A program made the position numbers and the translations under genes. The notes under the pieces are model-generated. The model was not told where the DNA came from. It saw nothing but the letters and a program-made list of their open reading frames with translations, and made no database searches. Shown here in pieces: positions 4,188-15,511 of a stretch of 22,939 nt of DNA. Each line of letters opens with the position of its first letter. Within the stretch, counting starts at the first letter, position 1. Source of the stretch: a virus. The DNA is taken from positions 1 through 22,939 of IMG/VR virus record IMGVR_UViG_3300022198_002536; one strand, written 5' to 3'.

Positions 4188-5690
4188 CTATTGTACTGGT
4201 CGTCGTGCTACAATGTCATCAATGCGTAAAATGGCATTGGTGACTTCACCAGCACTAAGTACGGCTTGACGCACTAACTCAACAGGCTCAATGACACCAT
4301 CAGCCAGCAAGTCTTTGACACCGCCATCGGTTACATTTGGGCCAACTGTAAGATTACCATGAAGAATCTCGTGTCGCATAGCAAGGATAGTATCAAGTGG
4401 GTCATGTCCTGCATTTTCAGCAATAGTTGCGGGTACAATTTCCAATGCATCTGCAAACGCCTCAATTGCCATCTGCGCTCTACCGCCTATTTGAGCGGCG
4501 TGCTGGCGCAAGTGCGAGGCCATTCGCACATAAGCATTCCCTCCACCTACAACATATTGCTTGGTTTGCATGACAAGTGATACGACACCAAGTGCATCAT
4601 CAAACCCACGCTCAACTTCTTCAAGCGTATGAGATGTAGCACCACGCAACACCAATGTTGCTTCGTTGCTTTCATTCTCACTACTAACAAACAAATACCA
4701 AACATCATTCTTTCTTTCACGAGTAATTAAAACTTGGCTGGCCGATTCAATTTCTTCGGGATATTGAACAATTGGAATGTTAGCCATACGGCTCATGGCA
4801 CGAAGTGATGATTCGGGTACACGACGAACAACCATAATGTTACTCTTCTTGAGATGTGAACAAACAATATCACTCACTCCATCCCGTACAAATACAACAC
4901 CACCGTTAGGCATCGCCGCTACGACATGTTTTGCACTCGTAATCAAATCAGCCTTGCTTGCACCTTTGTATGTTTGATATGAATTAACATCTAATTGAAC
5001 TTGAATATTATCCTCACTCTTTTCAGTTTCAAGACCCGAATTAATGAGAAGCATGTTTGTGTATGTATCATCACCTTCAAGCACATAGTCCTTGTTCACA
5101 ATCACACCATTGTATAGGTATGAATCTTCAAGTGAACCACCGGGAAATGATACTACCTTAACACTCTCAGCATCACCAGCCTTCTCAACGGCTGATACAC
5201 ATAATTCTGCAACTGCATCAAGCGCACTCTCAAGTGTCTTTCCTGTAATAGCCGTCTTTGCGACTTTAATCAAAGACTCTCGTTCATCACTGCTTTGTGC
5301 AATATCCGATACAAGATACTTAACAGCCATCTGTGCGGCTTCATGATAACCACGACAAATGACATTGGGGTGCAATCCTTTTTCAAACAACATTTCACTG
5401 TTGCCAAGTAATTGACCAGCCAACACGACTGTACTTGTTGTACCATCATAACACAACGATTCTTGTGTACGGGCAACTTCTGCAATCATCTTACCGCCGG
5501 GATGTGATACATCTAATTCACGAAGAATTGTAGCACCATCGTTTGTAACGATAACATTGCCACCACCATCTACCATCATTTTATCCATACCCATCGGGCC
5601 AAGCGTCGTCTTGACTGTTTCAGCAACCGTCTTTGCCGCCCTAATGTTATGTATTTGCGCCTTACCATTTACTCCTTCTTTTTCTGCCAT
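4188..5690 (-). CDS. Thermosome subunit, group II chaperonin (500 aa)
   Basis: This folds proteins with ATP in a double-ring chaperonin of the archaeal/eukaryotic CCT type. Visible landmarks are the N-terminal ATP-site motif [31 protein letters not shown], the GGG..... RMASHLR segment of the returning equatorial domain, [11 protein letters not shown] and the C-terminal [12 protein letters not shown]. At 500 residues it is somewhat shorter than cellular thermosomes (about 540-550) and lacks the Gly/Met-rich tail. The usual Gly before DGTT is Tyr (CYDGTT), and the usual Glu of GGGAxE is Tyr in GGGNAY. I choose the ATG at 5690 because GGTGA lies 5 bases upstream; an in-frame ATG at 5702 has no such site. 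The GGTGA contains the TGA of the upstream exonuclease. Virus-borne thermosomes are a reported feature of magroviruses. It may form its own ring or mix with host subunits. Confidence 0.95.
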
Positions 5691-5695
5691 ATGTT

Positions 5696-6298
5696 TCACC
5701 ATTCAACTTTTATTTCCATTATTTCGCCAGTTTCAAGGCTACGAGAATTGACATAACCATTACTTTTACCAAATTGGTATAAGTCATATGTCAATTTTGC
5801 ATCGTCTAAACAATACTTCGCAACCTCATCATACTTACCTGCTCTCCAAGCAATAGGGGCATCGGCACTGTTCATTAATTTGTTGCTGTCAAAAGTATGT
5901 TTGACAAGCATTCCGAGTGAAGTGTCCACTCGGCCAATGGGTAGTGCCGCACTGCTCACTAAGTTTCGTGTATCAATAATGGAATCGGATTTCATTAAAT
6001 CGTTGGCTGTCCAACAATCAAGCGCATCACGCAATACAGGCAGGTCAAACGCCTTAATGTTATGACCAATGATTTGACCGCCTTTTTCAACATGTTCTGC
6101 TAAGTCATCACCTAATGTACGAGGGTGTAATGCTTTGATTGTACTATCAATACCAAGTGATTCATTACAATACACTGTACCGTTATCACCATCCCATGTT
6201 GCTACAACTGTAGGCTCAAACATATGGGTATTTTTCCAACCACCTATTTCATGTGAAAAATTCCCTGTTTCAATATCTAAAGACAAATAATCGCTCAT
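5696..6298 (-). CDS. DEDDy-type 3'-5' exonuclease (DnaQ-like)
   Basis: This is a stand-alone RNase H-fold exonuclease that removes nucleotides from DNA (or RNA) 3' ends. All three motifs are visible: Exo I D8-I-E10, Exo [10 protein letters not shown] (78-85, with D85), and Exo III Y162-x3-D166, which makes it the DEDDy subtype. Length (200 aa) fits a single-domain enzyme. Its start overlaps the upstream ATPase stop as ATGA. Its own stop (TGGTGA) doubles as the ribosome binding site of the thermosome. PolB in this window carries its own exonuclease motifs, so this may process recombination or host DNA ends rather than proofread. Confidence in fold is high, in substrate low. Confidence 0.85.
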
Positions 6299-7692
6299 TG
6301 TGTATCACCTATTTTTCGTATGTACGCCCGACCACCGTTAGTCTTGGACTTAAACAGCCCTTGACTAAAGTTCTTGAAATGCCTATCGGCTGTACTCTTG
6401 GAAACCTTTGCTCGTTCCATGTAGGTTGAAAGGAAGATATTTTTCAATCTCCACCCATCACCATATCCATCAATTTCGTATGATGTACACTCAAGATAGG
6501 CCGCTATCATAGCATCTTGAGCCTTTGCTTCTTTCTGTTTGTTTCCACCAACTTCAACTGAATCTTCAAGCCATGCGATGAGATTTTGAAATAAGTCAAA
6601 CAAAATTTCGTGTGCCATATCTACATGTGTAGCATTAACTTCCCATGTATTATCAAGAATAGCCATGTGAACAGAAAATATACCTAAGTAATTTTCAATT
6701 GCTGGTGTAAATGATGCGACGATTTCCGCCATTGATGGACTCATATCTCGTAACAAATCATATAATTCATCGGATGCTTGATACAAGGCTGTAGAATATT
6801 CGGGTGTTGCTGAAAACATTTCCCACATATGCTCTTGAACAACTTCTTCTTTACCTTCATTCGTCAATTCCGACCATTGAGTAAAAGTCAATTCGCTTAA
6901 ATCAAGCAAACGGTCACGAATTCTTTTATCGGCATTTCTAAAGTATTCGTATAAATCATCTTTAGTTATGTCAGTTTTTTCCGACCTATTGAAAAATGTA
7001 CCAAGACGACGATTACTTACTTCTTGTCGCTCTTCCATATCCCAATCACGATAATAGAGCAATACACGCTGGAAGATACCTTTTGTAAGTACATACTCCT
7101 TGACACCGCTTGGTGGATAAGTAGTAATCCATAATGATACAAGTGATGGACATTCAACTTTGTTACCCTTCATGTGTTTAACAAGTGTGTTGTTACCACT
7201 CCCTACGGGGTTACAAGCCGTCTGTAGATACAGAACTGTCTCTTGGCTGTGCTTGTTGGGTGTAAGTAAGATTGAACCTTCATCAAAGTTAATCGCTTTG
7301 CGCCCTGCAAGCAACCCCTCAATGGTTTCTACTTCGCCTGTAGGTTTGCCCTTATCATCCACAACATTATTTGTTGAACCAATCAATCCTGCATCTGTAC
7401 CCGATGCAAACAACTCAAAGGGAATGTCGGCTTCCTTCATAATGTCACTGATGAAGTTCCATGCAATGGATTTCCCTGTACGGGATGGTTGAATCCAAAA
7501 GACATGGACTCGTAAATCAAGGTGCGAATCACCTGTGGGTAGTCGTATGTAAGGTAAAGTTGTTTGCCCTTGAATGAAAAAGAATGAAAGCAAACCCGGC
7601 ATATCATTCTTCATGGATGTTTGTGAAAAATGATGTAGATAGGCTTTCAATATCGGGAACTTTTCAACGGCTTGGTAATTTTTAATTTGCAT
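6295..7692 (-). CDS. P-loop ATPase, candidate replicative helicase (465 aa)
   Basis: A Walker A-like loop reads QPSRTGKS (68-75), lacking the usual first Gly, and a Walker B-like strand reads AINFDEGS (133-140). A later segment, KGIFQRVLLYYRDW, resembles the G.l.Rfl region that follows the sensor strand in DUF3987-type phage and plasmid ATPases. The C-terminus (about 400-460) looks like a winged helix (VSKSTADRHFKNF). The arrangement of ATPase plus C-terminal winged helix, and a place in a replisome cluster that otherwise lacks a helicase, make a DNA helicase role likely. The start is supported by GGAGATGA (7697-7704) 4 bases before the ATG, and a TATA-like element lies just upstream. It could instead be a packaging or defence-related ATPase; no MCM signature is clear. 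Confidence 0.6.
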   Translation of the reverse strand: MQIKNYQAVEKFPILKAYLHHFSQTSMKNDMPGLLSFFFIQGQTTLPYIRLPTGDSHLDLRVHVFWIQPSRTGKSIAWNFISDIMKEADIPFELFASGTDAGLIGSTNNVVDDKGKPTGEVETIEGLLAGRKAINFDEGSILLTPNKHSQETVLYLQTACNPVGSGNNTLVKHMKGNKVECPSLVSLWITTYPPSGVKEYVLTKGIFQRVLLYYRDWDMEERQEVSNRRLGTFFNRSEKTDITKDDLYEYFRNADKRIRDRLLDLSELTFTQWSELTNEGKEEVVQEHMWEMFSATPEYSTALYQASDELYDLLRDMSPSMAEIVASFTPAIENYLGIFSVHMAILDNTWEVNATHVDMAHEILFDLFQNLIAWLEDSVEVGGNKQKEAKAQDAMIAAYLECTSYEIDGYGDGWRLKNIFLSTYMERAKVSKSTADRHFKNFSQGLFKSKTNGGRAYIRKIGDTQ

Positions 7693-10097: not shown

Positions 10098-11087
10098 TTA
10101 TTCTTCCTCCATTATTTTATCTAACATTTCATCTGTTACTGACCAAAACTCACAATCTTCTTTGTAATCACACCAATCGCATTTCATCATATTTTTACCA
10201 AGAAATGGGTCGGGTGGAAACTCCATATCAATGTGTGCTTTGACTAATTTTTGGAGGCTTTTCTCAACGCTTTGCATTGTGTACTTACCTCCTGTTTTTG
10301 TATCTTCATAGAAGATAGTAGCACCTTCTCCATCTGCCATATTTCCACCGGGAAACTCCCATCCCCAGTGTGTTATAGGCATGAACTCAGCGTGCTTGCT
10401 ATGCTCTATCATCATCTTGTAAAAAGCCATTTCTTTACGCATGGATGGAACTTTTGATTTGGCTTTGTATTTACCAGTCTTTAATTCCATAAGAGCATAT
10501 CCTTCACCATCAGCAAAGAGTGTATCAATAAATCCATTGATGTGTACAGGTATAGCCTCACCATCAACTTCAACAAAGCGTGTAGCATGTACATTCGCTT
10601 CAACTCCTACAGGTCGCCATTGATGTCCACCTGTATGTAACAATCGTTGAAACTGCCACTCAGCCCATTGAGCAATCTGCTCATCTTCGCCATATTCATA
10701 TGGTTCGGGTGGCTGAGGAAATGCACTATAGAATAAACTGCGTGCTTTTTGTATATCATTGACTAATGCCAGTACCTCAGCCTCTTGCTCTTTCGTGAAG
10801 TTCTCCCAAAACCATTCCATCATATCGTGGACATTCAAACCCCGTACATGATGAGGTTGTTGTTCGCCACGCAAACCTTTGAATTTTTCAAGATAGTATT
10901 GTTGTGGACACCAATTGTAAGTACCAAGACTTGACTTTGTAATGCGTAGAATTTTTGTTTCATCTTCATTTGGATTCCACGCATAGGTACTCTTACGGTA
11001 TGATTCAGCCTCTTCGTCGTGACCTGTTTCTGCAAGGTAATCATCTATTGATGGGCGACTATCATCGCCTTTAGGATTAAAACGCAT
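10098..11087 (-). CDS. Cas4/RecB-like PD-(D/E)XK nuclease with Fe-S cysteines
   Basis: A RecB-family nuclease of the Cas4 type (numbering from the first ATG at 11090): C61 in WCPQQYYLEKFKGL, H88 in GLNVHD, D189 in GFIDTLF, E202-x-K204 in MELKTGK, a QxxxY-like EMAFYK (220-225), and C304, C307 and C313 in CDWCDYKEDC. The four Cys match the 4Fe-4S site of Cas4/AddB-type enzymes. Such enzymes resect DNA ends and, in viruses, serve recombination, replication or end processing. No other cas gene is nearby, so CRISPR adaptation is unlikely. Two ATGs stand in tandem. I choose the second (11087), 6 bases after GGTGA; the first overlaps the TGA of the small Cys-rich ORF as ATGA and is equally possible. 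Confidence 0.9.
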   Translation of the reverse strand: MRFNPKGDDSRPSIDDYLAETGHDEEAESYRKSTYAWNPNEDETKILRITKSSLGTYNWCPQQYYLEKFKGLRGEQQPHHVRGLNVHDMMEWFWENFTKEQEAEVLALVNDIQKARSLFYSAFPQPPEPYEYGEDEQIAQWAEWQFQRLLHTGGHQWRPVGVEANVHATRFVEVDGEAIPVHINGFIDTLFADGEGYALMELKTGKYKAKSKVPSMRKEMAFYKMMIEHSKHAEFMPITHWGWEFPGGNMADGEGATIFYEDTKTGGKYTMQSVEKSLQKLVKAHIDMEFPPDPFLGKNMMKCDWCDYKEDCEFWSVTDEMLDKIMEEE

Positions 11088-11185
11088 CATTGTTCACCAT
11101 TCCATCCATCACAATCACAATGTTCACTACAATTCTTACACACTGAACAATTGTGGTCTGCTTCACAAAAGTTACATTCACTCAT
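11087..11185 (-). CDS. Mini Cys-rich protein (32 aa, seven Cys)
   Basis: A short frame fills the gap between the Cas4-like gene and the gene before it. It encodes C4, C7, C13, C16, C19, C23 and C25 with H11 and H22, so several overlapping CxxC pairs able to bind one or two zinc ions. GGTGA lies 6 bases before the ATG. The start shares one base with the upstream TGA (TGATG), and the stop forms ATGA with the Cas4-like start. This fits the packing of the confirmed genes. Function is unknown. Confidence 0.55.
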   Translation of the reverse strand: MSECNFCEADHNCSVCKNCSEHCDCDGWNGEQ

Positions 11186-11361: not shown

Positions 11362-11543
11362 TGGCTCGCCTCCTGTATCAATCGCTGAACATATACTGCG
11401 GCATCCATGAGTTCTTCCTGTAGATGAGTGAGCCACTCAACAAGGTTAAGGTCGCCTCGTTCCATCGTTACACCATACTTGGCTTTACCGACCTCAGCCC
11501 GTTGTTGAATCTTAGCGCATACTTCATCTTCAATGCGACTCAT
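11358..11543 (-). CDS. MazG-like NTP pyrophosphohydrolase-type small protein (61 aa)
   Basis: The sequence follows a pattern frequent in phage genomes: a helix with QQRAEVGKAKYGVT, an 'RGDLNL' turn, then EWLTHLQEELMDAAVYVQRL. The EELMD segment (43-47) resembles the ExxxD metal-binding helix of MazG/dUTPase-like all-alpha NTP pyrophosphohydrolases, which cleave (d)NTPs to monophosphate. At 61 residues it would hold only one half of the usual four-helix bundle and would need to form oligomers. The start overlaps the upstream 36-aa ORF stop as ATGA. Family assignment is by pattern only. Confidence 0.55.
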   Translation of the reverse strand: MSRIEDEVCAKIQQRAEVGKAKYGVTMERGDLNLVEWLTHLQEELMDAAVYVQRLIQEASQ

Positions 11544-11650
11544 TCTTCTTCAACCCCGTACAACTTTTTGGCCTTATCGTAATAGCCATCTATCTGTCTT
11601 TCTTCTTCTTGCGTTCTTAGTTTTTCAAATAGCCAATCCCAAAATCCCAT
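11540..11650 (-). CDS. Small hypothetical protein (36 aa)
   Basis: This is a short frame with an unusually good ribosome site, AGGAGGT, 8 bases before the ATG, embedded in the end of the MORC-like gene. The protein begins MGFWDWLFEKLR, an amphipathic Trp/Phe-rich helix, and ends in acidic VEEE; 14 of 36 residues are charged Lys, Arg, Glu or Asp in the second half. The stop forms ATGA with the next gene. The amphipathic start could contact a membrane or a partner protein. No family is recognised. Confidence 0.55.
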   Translation of the reverse strand: MGFWDWLFEKLRTQEEERQIDGYYDKAKKLYGVEEE

Positions 11651-11651
11651 C

Positions 11652-13106
11652 TTACTTACCTCCTACATTCAAATATGTAGCGAGTACCGTTTTATGTTGA
11701 GTTGATTTTTCATCCCAATATGATATGTTAAAATCTTTGAGTAACGGCTTCCAATGCTCTTCAAATTGTTTCTTTGCATTCGCAAGTATATTCTTAGCAA
11801 ATACTACACCTTGTTTTGCATTTACAGTAACCATATATCCAACTAATTGATTCATGTCTTGTGCATTAAAATTACCTTTCTTAACTTCAAATACATACAT
11901 TGTATCACCGCTATTGGCAGTTACATCCATACTTAAATTAGTATCAGTGGATTCTTCTGTTTTCACATCATTCCATATTGAATCACCCGAAGGTAAAACT
12001 TGCGCCTTCAAATAATCAGCCAATGCATCACGAATTAAAGATTCACTTACACTATCGTAGTCATCTTCATCTTCGGGTGGATTAAAGAAACTTGAAATTT
12101 TACCTTCTTTGATAGTTTCAGCAATGGCCTTTTTGACTTCCATCCACATGTCTGTTTGTTGTACTCCATCTTTCTTGGGTGTAGTAGGTAAATGCCCTTC
12201 TTTGATTACTAATTGACCAACGAGTGCATTTAATGATGTGTGATTTTTTGGCCTCCATTCTGTAAGAGGTTCATATGTACGATGCATAATAACTCGTTCA
12301 TTTTGTATAACATCTATTCCACCACCGTAACTGCATTTGGCCCACATACCTTCGTGTGCATCGGGACTCATACCTATTGTAAGTTCACCCACAATATCTT
12401 TAGTCGTAATTTCCTTCTTTAGTAAATGCACATTAGTAGATGTTGTAGGATGAAAATACGGAGGGAAAATTGGTTTAACAATAGATGATACAGGATTACC
12501 TTTTGCATCTTTCATTATATATCCTGTGGACACATCAACCTCATTAATTGTAATATTACCTCCATTTTGAATAAATAATCCATAACGCACACCTAACATA
12601 TCTCTTAATGCAATAACTCTTTGCGCCGCATAAATGTTTAATTCAACACTTATTTGTATTTTTGTGCCAGTTCTATCGGGTACGGTAATTTCATCTTCAA
12701 TCAAAAGGTCGTTTCCTTCATAACCGTAAATACAATACGAATCTACTCCATCATAAGAATAAATTTTGTCCAATCCTTTTCGTATATCCGAACTACCAAA
12801 ATATGCAATCGCACTTTTCATTCCGACTCCATGTTCATGTACACCTTGATTTGTTCTTGCACCAACACTCAATGCTACACTTGCATCATTAAGTGAAATT
12901 CCGCATCCGTCATCTATTACAGATATTTTCTTAATACTTCTTTGTCCAAAATTTTCAACAAGTAAATTAATTGATATGTTTTTTGCGCTTACTATCGCAT
13001 TATCAATTAATTCATTCAATGCCGTATAAAAAGTGAAACCACTTTTTGACATTGTGTTCGCCATTAATTCATTGTTGCTCTCCATCTTCAATATTTTCTT
13101 TGCCAT
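11652..13106 (-). CDS. MORC-like GHKL ATPase fused to a C-terminal PD-(D/E)XK-like nuclease domain (484 aa)
   Basis: The N-terminal GHKL ATP-binding fold shows ALNELIDNAI (Asn/Asp motif, about 29-38), VIDDGCGIS (63-71) and GVHEHGVGMKSAIAYFG (88-104). An S5-like second domain follows, with the W.KCSYGGGIDVIQNERVI segment and LPTTPKKDGVQQTDMW, which resembles the conserved 'P.T..K..F' end of MORC proteins. The C-terminal part has LSMDVTA (D394), VFEVKKG (E407 and K409) and Q420, the order expected for a PD-(D/E)XK nuclease. MORC-type ATPases clamp DNA on ATP binding, and prokaryotic relatives occur with restriction systems. The ATG at 13106 is chosen because GGTGA, formed from the PolB stop, is 5 bases upstream; an in-frame GTG at 13118 is the alternative. 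Its role here is unknown: DNA remodelling, host DNA degradation or competitor exclusion. Confidence 0.8.
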   Translation of the reverse strand: MAKKILKMESNNELMANTMSKSGFTFYTALNELIDNAIVSAKNISINLLVENFGQRSIKKISVIDDGCGISLNDASVALSVGARTNQGVHEHGVGMKSAIAYFGSSDIRKGLDKIYSYDGVDSYCIYGYEGNDLLIEDEITVPDRTGTKIQISVELNIYAAQRVIALRDMLGVRYGLFIQNGGNITINEVDVSTGYIMKDAKGNPVSSIVKPIFPPYFHPTTSTNVHLLKKEITTKDIVGELTIGMSPDAHEGMWAKCSYGGGIDVIQNERVIMHRTYEPLTEWRPKNHTSLNALVGQLVIKEGHLPTTPKKDGVQQTDMWMEVKKAIAETIKEGKISSFFNPPEDEDDYDSVSESLIRDALADYLKAQVLPSGDSIWNDVKTEESTDTNLSMDVTANSGDTMYVFEVKKGNFNAQDMNQLVGYMVTVNAKQGVVFAKNILANAKKQFEEHWKPLLKDFNISYWDEKSTQHKTVLATYLNVGGK

Positions 13107-13111
13107 GTTCT

Positions 13112-15511
13112 TCACCACATTTTTCTCGGCACTCGGCGTGCCGTCAGCCTTTCTAAATCCCAGTCAAGTGTTTCATACACCGACTTTAATTTACTATGAA
13201 TCCATTTATTTACAATAGTAGTCCAGTCAATACTGTACTCACTCAATTGACGCTCATCCTCAAAACCTACAACATTACAGTAAGGCTGGCCTTCGGGTAC
13301 ATCATCTACAAATATCCAGCGCACGCTATCATTCTTTCCGTATGAAGTACCCAAGTATTCATTTGAATAGCGTGCCGCTTTAGCAGGATTGGGTACTACC
13401 TTATCATATTCATTTAGATTCTTACTGATAGAACCATATGAAGATGCCTCAGTTGGTGTTATACTACCTTCATACACAGACTTGACTTGTGGGCGTACAG
13501 CATGATGAATTGTATCTTCATCATCACCACTTGAAATCATTTGGAATACTTTACCCAGTATTTCTTTTGTGAGTGGTGGGGCGTTTGATGCCTTAATTGA
13601 AAACCCAGTGACTTTCATATCACCTGCATCTTCGGGAGGCCATGACTTGATACCAAAGTTACGATTTTTGACATTAGCCGTGAACCAGTACGGGAAGAAT
13701 GCTTCTAATTCTACATCAAGATACTTTAGCCCCATTTCATTTTGTGCAATATCGGTAAGGCGTTGGGCTACAACCTCAGCCTCTTCAAACGGAACTTGAA
13801 TATAACATGAATCTGTATGACCTGCAAGGCCACGATACCCCATTTCTTCGCTCTTTTTAACGAGCATAGATATTGACTCACGACCAAGATAAGTAATGGA
13901 CTGAGCAATCTCATAACTACTCCATTGTCCACGAACTTTCCTACTACCAACCATACCGTAAATTGCGTTCACTGCAACCTTTACAGCCATCTGTAACATA
14001 TTGTAACCCAACTTCTCATCGGGGTCAGTGGAGGTTTTCATGAGGTTTTTGTAATGCTTACGAAGGGCAAGCATATCTTTGACGACCTTTGGAAGCAAAC
14101 CTTCCTTGTCTTGTCGCCAATGGAATACACCACCTGTACCGGGAATATAGTTACCATCGTCATCTATCTTAGCAGGTATGTCAAGAGTAAGAATATTTGG
14201 CCCTGCATGGTCACACATGGTAGTCCAACACAGATTGGCCGAGAGAATGATATTTGGATATAGGGATGCGAAATCCACCAGTGCTACATTTTGGTGGCGA
14301 CCAGCAACAGGAGGCATAACCCATGCCGCTTGTAAATCGGGTCGCTCTTCAATAAATGATGTAGGTGCTTTGAGATTTGTTTTACGGCCAATTAAACCAC
14401 GAAAGTATCTGCTTACATTATGTGTGCTACCGAACTGTACACCAGCCACTTGTTGTAATGCAAAGTGGAAATCAGTACAGTGTAACTTCTCGTCAATGTC
14501 ACGCAACAAAGTGGTATCAACTAAACAGTAATCAACGAAGTCATCATAGTAATCACTCCATCCATTGTGTACAGTCATTCCTTCAATATCATCAGTGAGT
14601 TTGTGACCTAAACCAAGTTCAGTAGCGAACCAGTTTAACTTGCGTTGTTGTGCTTTGCCACGACCACTCTTTTGCCATACACCTTCAAACCCACTTCCTT
14701 CTTCCCATCGTGCGGCTGAGTCAAATACTAAACGACCTTTGATGGGTTGGCCTGTAACCTTGTAACCTTCATTATTTTTCTTTGGTGGTAAAAAGATTCC
14801 AAGTGGTGACATATCGTGCTTAAGTACACCCATGCGGTCATGTAACTTTGGTAAATCAGCCCATGCCCCTGCATGAGCAATCAGCATATCGGGGTCACGC
14901 TCTTTGAGGTAATCTAAGAAACCTGCAAGCATCTTATCCTCGTTACGATATGTACGGAGTTCGTAGCCACCGTAACGGTCAATCCATTCAGTCTTAGTAA
15001 TACTCAAGCGTATGGATTCTTCACTCCATGAAAACACTACAGGATGTTCAGCATCACTGTCAGCAACCGCCATGACGGTAATAGCACCATCACCAGTTGT
15101 TTGCCACTCTAAATCGTAATACCACTTACGAGGATGAAATTCGGGAATACCTTCGGGATAGTTGGTAAGAAGGATTTGGTCAAGATAATTCAAATCAGCC
15201 TCATGTGTCCATTTACCAACCGCTTCTTTGATTTCCCAAAGGGTATTAGGATGATTAACTTCTACCTTCCATAACTTACCACCATCAAGTCCTGTACCGA
15301 TTTCATCAGTAAGAATACGAGCATGGAAATTGCGTAAGCGATTGAGTACCCATGTCGGTGCATTCTGTCGCAACCAACAGAACGGGTACACGAAGTCGTT
15401 ATCTTCATGAGTAATGTAACGCTCTTTGAGTACACCATCAGCACCACGAGTACGCTCATAAATTATGGGCGGCTCATATGGGTCATCCGATGTGTAATCA
15501 ATAATCATCAT
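13112..15511 (-). CDS. polB: Family B DNA polymerase with 3'-5' exonuclease domain (799 aa)
   Basis: This is the replicative polymerase. The exonuclease domain shows Exo I D133-L-E135 (YYDLEW), an Exo II-like HAGAWADLPKL with D219, and Exo III Y328-x3-D332. The polymerase domain shows motif A DFASLYPNII (D413), motif B K511-VAV-N515-AIYG and motif C GHTDS (565-568). Motif C normally reads DTDS; here the first Asp is His (codon CAT) while the second Asp (D567), the one that pairs with motif A in catalysis, is kept. Exo II has Ala where Asn is usual. The ATG overlaps the PCNA stop as ATGA, with a second ATG one codon later. The stop is part of the next gene's ribosome site. Clamp and loader genes lie immediately upstream. 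Confidence 0.96.
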   Translation of the reverse strand: MMIIDYTSDDPYEPPIIYERTRGADGVLKERYITHEDNDFVYPFCWLRQNAPTWVLNRLRNFHARILTDEIGTGLDGGKLWKVEVNHPNTLWEIKEAVGKWTHEADLNYLDQILLTNYPEGIPEFHPRKWYYDLEWQTTGDGAITVMAVADSDAEHPVVFSWSEESIRLSITKTEWIDRYGGYELRTYRNEDKMLAGFLDYLKERDPDMLIAHAGAWADLPKLHDRMGVLKHDMSPLGIFLPPKKNNEGYKVTGQPIKGRLVFDSAARWEEGSGFEGVWQKSGRGKAQQRKLNWFATELGLGHKLTDDIEGMTVHNGWSDYYDDFVDYCLVDTTLLRDIDEKLHCTDFHFALQQVAGVQFGSTHNVSRYFRGLIGRKTNLKAPTSFIEERPDLQAAWVMPPVAGRHQNVALVDFASLYPNIILSANLCWTTMCDHAGPNILTLDIPAKIDDDGNYIPGTGGVFHWRQDKEGLLPKVVKDMLALRKHYKNLMKTSTDPDEKLGYNMLQMAVKVAVNAIYGMVGSRKVRGQWSSYEIAQSITYLGRESISMLVKKSEEMGYRGLAGHTDSCYIQVPFEEAEVVAQRLTDIAQNEMGLKYLDVELEAFFPYWFTANVKNRNFGIKSWPPEDAGDMKVTGFSIKASNAPPLTKEILGKVFQMISSGDDEDTIHHAVRPQVKSVYEGSITPTEASSYGSISKNLNEYDKVVPNPAKAARYSNEYLGTSYGKNDSVRWIFVDDVPEGQPYCNVVGFEDERQLSEYSIDWTTIVNKWIHSKLKSVYETLDWDLERLTARRVPRKMW

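Follow-up and report, generated by a model that had tools for sequence, protein, structure and literature searches.

A marine virus fragment encodes a protein in which a MORC-type GHKL ATPase is fused to a PD-(D/E)XK nuclease (484 amino acids; positions 11652..13106, minus strand), as judged from its motifs, its homologs and a structural model. Sequence comparison across related loci demonstrates that this gene travels horizontally between viruses as an ORF-precise cassette, entering and leaving a slot directly behind the gene for family B DNA polymerase (polB). We give roughly even odds (a probability of about 0.5) to the reading that the product is a mobile, single-gene, ATP-gated DNA-conflict nuclease of the superinfection exclusion or restriction type, which draws on sequence, the predicted structure and analogy.

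The window, by which we mean the whole stretch of DNA that was analysed, is a virus fragment of 22,939 bases. A family profile scan of its proteins returned PolB, a clamp loader, an ERCC4-type nuclease, a Cas4-like nuclease and a chaperonin. The replication block and a tail-fibre-like gene lie on opposite strands, which is the layout described for Apasviridae and Aoguangviridae, and both gene content and organisation fit a magrovirus of marine Poseidoniales as the source. RNA families, tRNAs and tandem repeats were searched for and none were found. Two other products of the window are recorded here. The virus-borne chaperonin (4188-5702; PHROG groEL group, E = 6e-40) has no relative among annotated phage records at E<=1e-20. 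A 465-amino-acid protein (6295-7692) that is present in nearly all related loci carries a Walker-A-like PSRTGKS string without a Pfam match, and is possibly a divergent helicase or ATPase.

The MORC-nuclease ORF begins with an ATG at 13106 and ends with a TAA stop at 11654-11652. Directly upstream lies polB (13112..15511, minus strand; PF00136, E = 3e-40), which ends in TGG-TGA with the stop TGA at 13114-13112. A GGTGA string resembling a ribosome site (13112..13116, minus strand) lies over this stop, with 5 nt between it and the MORC ATG. An alternative in-frame GTG start is found at 13118, 12 bases upstream of the ATG. Because GGTGA spans the polB stop and the in-frame GTG overlaps polB, translational coupling between the two genes is plausible. 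The first-pass annotation had placed the gene directly behind PolB and coupled it through the polymerase stop codon; the position is confirmed, and the sequence makes the coupling likely. The GGTGA string is retained at the MORC-less site of a close relative, L011, and a 36-amino-acid ORF (MGFWDWLFEKL...; 11540..11650, minus strand) that follows the MORC gene in the window directly follows polB in L011. An assembly error as the source of the polB-MORC junction was considered and rejected because the junction recurs in more than 10 contigs.

The GHKL (Bergerat) ATPase domain occupies residues 1-160 (12627..13106, minus strand) and contains NELIDN (31-36), DDGCGIS (65-71) and GVHEHGVGMKS (88-98), as well as GT at 147-148. 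It scores above the Pfam cut-off for HATPase_c_3 (E = 7e-8) and has all four GHKL ATP-binding motifs of the MORC family definition (Iyer et al. 2008). Across 18 full-length viral and bacterial homologs, the most distant of which is ~20% identical to the window protein, the columns E32, D35, N36, D65, G69, EHGxGMK and T148 are near-invariant. The S5/transducer domain follows (residues 161-340; 12087..12626, minus strand). Its sequence G263-I-D-V-I-Q-N-E-R271-V-I273, kept across the magrovirus set, carries the MORC-specific S5 motif, GhXhhpXXRhl (PMC2292703). Conserved S5 residues further include H289, N293 and K312, and G263, R271 and K312 are near-invariant in the 18 homologs. When a 29-sequence profile was compared with PDB chains, human MORC4 (8e-17) and MORC3 (2e-16, residues 28-338) were the best matches, ranking above topoisomerase VI-B, SMCHD1, MORC2 and MutL.

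The predicted nuclease domain spans residues 355-478 (11673..12044, minus strand) and carries D394, E407-x-K409 and Q420xxxY424, a D-ExK-QxxxY pattern that we take to be the RecB/Cas4-type form of PD-(D/E)XK. E407, K409, Q420 and Y424 occur in 18 of the 18 full-length homologs and D394 in 17; in a six-sequence alignment with the bacterial plasmid homologs, the GHKL motifs, D394, E407, K409, D417, Q420 and Y424 are invariant. Over the C-terminus, Pfam nuclease models stay below their cut-offs, the sub-threshold hits being Cas4 (0.018) and NERD (0.046). Profile-profile comparison (hhalign) of this domain with the virus's own Cas4-like nuclease and with other families of the window was not significant; in that non-significant alignment the D and ExK fall in register with those of the Cas4-like nuclease. 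The DUF4263 model (PF14082 / SduA) gave no match at E<=1 in Pfam or at E<=10 in NCBIfam and PADLOC. We assign the putative nuclease fold from motif conservation together with the order of predicted secondary structure.

AlphaFold2 modelling from 7 close relatives gave a pLDDT of 31, and modelling from a 29-row alignment gave a pLDDT of 78 (77.9; pTM 0.65), with residues 400-470 at pLDDT 86-90. The latter model contains a Bergerat fold, a transducer and an alpha-beta3-alpha-beta nuclease core. Its nuclease elements run H355-367, E378-380, E395-399, E402-413, H415-427 and E432-440, the helix-strand-strand-strand-helix-strand order expected of a restriction-endonuclease core. Foldseek matched the model to Hsp90, topoisomerase VI-B, gyrase B, SMCHD1 and MORC4. 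Thus, the GHKL motifs, the MORC-like S5 region and the D394...E407-x-K409...Q420 nuclease pattern of the first-pass annotation are confirmed, Y424 is added to the last of these, and the structure prediction that it had called for yields both the Bergerat fold and the nuclease core. The dN/dS ratio is ~0.04-0.05 for the MORC-nuclease gene and 0.02-0.04 over the nuclease, with synonymous sites near saturation in more distant pairs. At the level of aligned sequences, both active-site motif sets are intact and under purifying selection.

The MORC gene is present at 9 of 39 related PolB loci, always directly behind polB, and a second group (L087-L090; PolB ~61%, MORC 63-65% identity) has it at the same position. 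The relative L011 encodes a PolB protein 99.4% identical to that of the window, has flanking DNA that is 98.5% identical, and lacks exactly the MORC ORF. The missing segment (11651..13102; 1,452 bp) is the whole MORC cassette, with limits that are ambiguous by 4 bp and 4 bp of microhomology at the indel. Additionally, of 12 related virus records with lengths of 35-108 kb, some of them possibly fragmentary, 10 have no MORC homolog at any position.

Across related loci, polB and the next conserved gene are separated by anything from 0.14 to 4.0 kb, and the far side of this slot is bordered in the window by the conserved Cas4-like PD-(D/E)XK nuclease (10098..11090, minus strand; PF12705, E = 3e-22). 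Sister magroviruses hold CoiA-like (PF25164) putative nucleases in the slot (L011:3198-3959, L012:13177-14103 and also L013), and L049 has a possible N6-methylase there. In L021-L023 (e.g. L021:14834-16415), an HNH endonuclease (PF14279) and a C5-cytosine methylase (PF00145, E = 1e-44) stand beside MORC, a pairing also reported for the MORC restriction operons of bacteria. This is the one lineage in which a methylase lies near a magrovirus MORC gene; the window proteins scanned, which were part of the set, include no methylase and no match to an SFII helicase family. From these comparisons, the slot behind polB acts as a hotspot for cargo genes and the MORC gene is an accessory cassette, not a conserved part of the replisome. 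The first-pass annotation had set the gene inside a viral replisome operon, and the neighbourhood survey that it proposed does not bear this out: the contents of the slot vary, and the gene is missing from L011 and from most relatives.

Comparison of MORC and PolB identities between pairs of viruses indicates that the MORC gene is exchanged independently of PolB. Between 3300017751 and 3300032083, MORC is 93.6% and PolB 66.6% identical; the corresponding values are 85.5% and 73.5% for the window and 3300034374, and 76.6% and 85.0% for the window and 3300021962. In the first of these pairs, DNA identity rises from ~62% to 87-91% at the start of MORC and drops again where the gene ends, 89% giving way to 57%. 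Because identity steps at the MORC edges, what is exchanged is essentially the ORF, without shared flank. The GC content of the MORC gene is 34%, the lowest of the window genes measured (others 38-45%), and in four other lineages it lies ~7-8 points under that of the accompanying polB; by composition the gene is foreign-like. Compared at the MORC edges, L002 and L004 show an exchange that is exact to the ORF and lacks homology in the flanks; the junctions share a short TGGTGA-N-ATG context.

The same address is used in a group of T4-like phages, their PolB sharing 54% identity with the enzyme of Microcystis phage Mel-JY01. Here the homologs, with 27-33% identity to the window protein across its ATPase part, are flanked by polB on one side and by the gene for the sliding clamp on the other. 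They were found in 9 of the 78 T4-like loci with sequence beyond polB, and most other loci, some with 97-99% identical PolB, have a mere 70-80 bp intergenic gap. L129 and L144 hold alleles that are ~37% identical behind near-identical upstream sequence. Since a GroEL-like chaperonin gene fills the polB-clamp gap in L204 (L204:2878-4506), this gap is a general cargo slot and is not restricted to MORC. Judged by gene order, the MORC address directly behind polB is common to two unrelated virus groups. In L128, L131 and L144, a repeated promoter-like string (TTTGG...TATATTTG) precedes each slot gene and resembles Bacteroidota promoters; it may provide homology for cassette exchange and may hint at the host of the T4-like phages.

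That the ORF alone is inserted beside polB, and this in two virus groups that are not related, could reflect a free-standing, homing-type selfish nuclease (including intronless homing and marker exclusion) that would cut MORC-less genomes near polB and be copied in by repair, with the GHKL domain as an ATP gate. Phage homing genes prefer DNA polymerase genes as neighbours, and the MORC gene resembles free-standing phage homing endonucleases (PMC2988022) in being a scarless, sporadic nuclease ORF beside polB with an empty site in sister genomes; that T4-like alleles of no more than 36% identity occupy one site also fits. However, those endonucleases show co-conversion of their flanks and the MORC loci do not, the magrovirus flanks being at background identity from the ORF edges and the T4-like polB ends being mixed. 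The bacterial homologs lie away from polB, on plasmids and chromosomes, and we know of no homing enzyme that contains a GHKL domain. We consider homing unlikely.

The bacterial homologs bear on the conflict-nuclease reading in another way. The window protein had no homolog in annotated phage records at E<=0.01, with only spurious matches at E<=10. A tight alignment found no close relatives in cellular genomes, and a diverse alignment detected distant ones. There are full-length plasmid homologs at ~22% identity in Priestia megaterium (WP_241097392.1; search hit at 24% identity, E = 2e-8) and Lactiplantibacillus plantarum (WP_318629771.1, WP_285224560.1). Annotated as 'ATP-binding protein', they share the GHKL and D-ExK-QxxxY residues of the window protein but reside on cellular plasmids. 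The plasmid homologs are found near dcm, restriction enzymes and SNF2, or near Sau3AI, and near restriction/methylase or toxin-antitoxin genes; restriction genes are near the Priestia homolog. The Psychrobacter homologs (L082, L064 and L079) are not in obvious defence islands. On a Halococcus plasmid (L053:4968-7862), a GHKL ATPase domain is fused to an N6/N4 DNA methylase (PF01555), with a second methylase gene adjoining.

As a conflict nuclease, the protein would work as follows. By extrapolation from GHKL relatives, the MORC-type GHKL domain would dimerise on ATP binding and form a DNA-engaging clamp with S5, and ATP turnover would license the C-terminal RecB-type PD-(D/E)XK nuclease to cut the engaged DNA. 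Its place in the cargo slot behind polB would lead to the nuclease being made together with the replication proteins. The likeliest target would be DNA competing with the virus, which is presumably lytic: superinfecting viruses, plasmids or the host chromosome. Its own genome might be spared by DNA-end sensing or by modification, both of which are guesses. We assume a working similar to that of VcSduA, an anti-phage protein, and withhold the Shedu label, because the domain order and two catalytic elements match and DUF4263 does not. A portable weapon or exclusion factor appears likelier than a replication part because the protein resembles an anti-phage protein and comes and goes between near-identical viruses. 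Restriction-type slot neighbours in relatives, catalytic sets that are kept to ~20% identity and the VcSduA precedent speak for a conflict nuclease. Against it stand the missing DUF4263 match, the lack of a methylase among the scanned window proteins, the Psychrobacter homologs outside obvious defence islands, and the recurrent polB address, which is also compatible with a replication-linked or homing role.

The strong constraint on the nuclease also bears on whether the protein could be a counter-defence factor comparable to T4 rIIA, disabling a host defence complex. Accessory cargo often has such roles, and rIIA, which is a GHKL protein counted as a counter-defence system of phages (PMC7824862), is among the best fold matches of the model in viruses. 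This likeness, a virus-borne GHKL ATPase fold, is a fold-level match that would be expected for any GHKL protein, and a pure inhibitor needs no conserved nuclease site, yet by dN/dS the nuclease is the most constrained region. To our knowledge, T4 rIIA-like GHKL proteins have no nuclease motif. We hold counter-defence to be about as improbable as homing. The protein might instead serve the viral replisome in replication, recombination or DNA topology, as a MutL- or topoisomerase VI-like PolB helper. Such a role would suit the position behind PolB and the likely coupling to it, the T4-like gene order in which the gene separates polB from the clamp gene, and the GHKL relatives MutL, gyrase B and topoisomerase VI-B. 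It appears slightly less probable still and is the reading least compatible with the presence/absence pattern, on which both replisome-part and topoisomerase readings were demoted, and with exchange independent of PolB; the gene is absent from L011 and most relatives. The NCBIfam MutL model scores 22 bits against a cut-off of 180.

There is a small chance that MORC-nuclease fusions form an unrecognised class of ATP-gated mobile nucleases at the polB address, of homing or exclusion type, that cut MORC-less genomes. Unrelated archaeal and bacterial viruses would acquire, swap and lose these ORF-precise cassettes, and the cutting would serve to spread the element or to exclude rivals; its ATPase would be a relative of the MORC proteins that act in eukaryotic silencing. 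In animals and plants, transposons are silenced by MORC ATPases; here a MORC ATPase is joined to its own predicted nuclease and is carried by a virus as a one-gene cassette. The roots of MORC have been proposed to lie in prokaryotic restriction systems (Iyer et al., PMC2292703). If the conflict nuclease does exclude rival viruses, marine archaeal viruses, which are abundant, would carry in it a compact virus-versus-virus weapon, and it would offer a simple system for asking what a MORC clamp does to DNA.

Among known systems, VcSduA (type I-D Shedu, formerly annotated paraMORC3) combines a GHKL ATPase with a C-terminal PD-(D/E)XK (DUF4263) nuclease and restricts phages; its activity is abolished by a change in the GHKL Glu (E27) or the nuclease Lys (K557), and a dimer model suggests a clamp controlling the nuclease (PMC12137116). 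Like VcSduA, the window protein is a single chain from a single gene with an N-terminal GHKL domain, a middle domain and a C-terminal PD-(D/E)XK nuclease, and the roles of E27 and K557 are matched by E32 and K409. Unlike VcSduA, its C-terminus has no match to DUF4263/Shedu models, its S5 has the MORC signature, and its gene is viral and occupies a cargo slot behind polB. Because the nuclease does not match the Shedu DUF4263 models, we regard the link as one of architecture and not of domain match.

In paraMORC3, GHKL and S5 are combined with a RecB-like RE-fold nuclease with E-D-ExK-type motifs, and a subset lacks restriction neighbours (PMC2292703). The window protein likewise has a C-terminal RecB-like RE-fold nuclease (D394/E407xK409/Q420xxxY424, predicted order), but paraMORCs are described without the S5 motif (PMC2292703), which the window protein and its magrovirus relatives have. 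With the prokaryotic MORC of restriction-modification operons (PMC2292703), it shares the GHKL and S5 motifs, and MORC4/MORC3 are the closest solved structures. Those described MORCs act beside separate nucleases and helicases, whereas in the window protein the nuclease is part of the same chain, and the window proteins that were scanned include no SFII helicase neighbour. The link between MORC-type proteins and restriction systems drawn in the first-pass annotation is supported. That annotation knew of no described function for this fusion in an archaeal virus, and no activity is known for any viral member; the architecture has precedents in paraMORC3 and VcSduA, one of them with a tested function. 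The GHKL-nuclease fusion is already known from these two; what is new is its genetics, an ORF-precise mobility behind polB.
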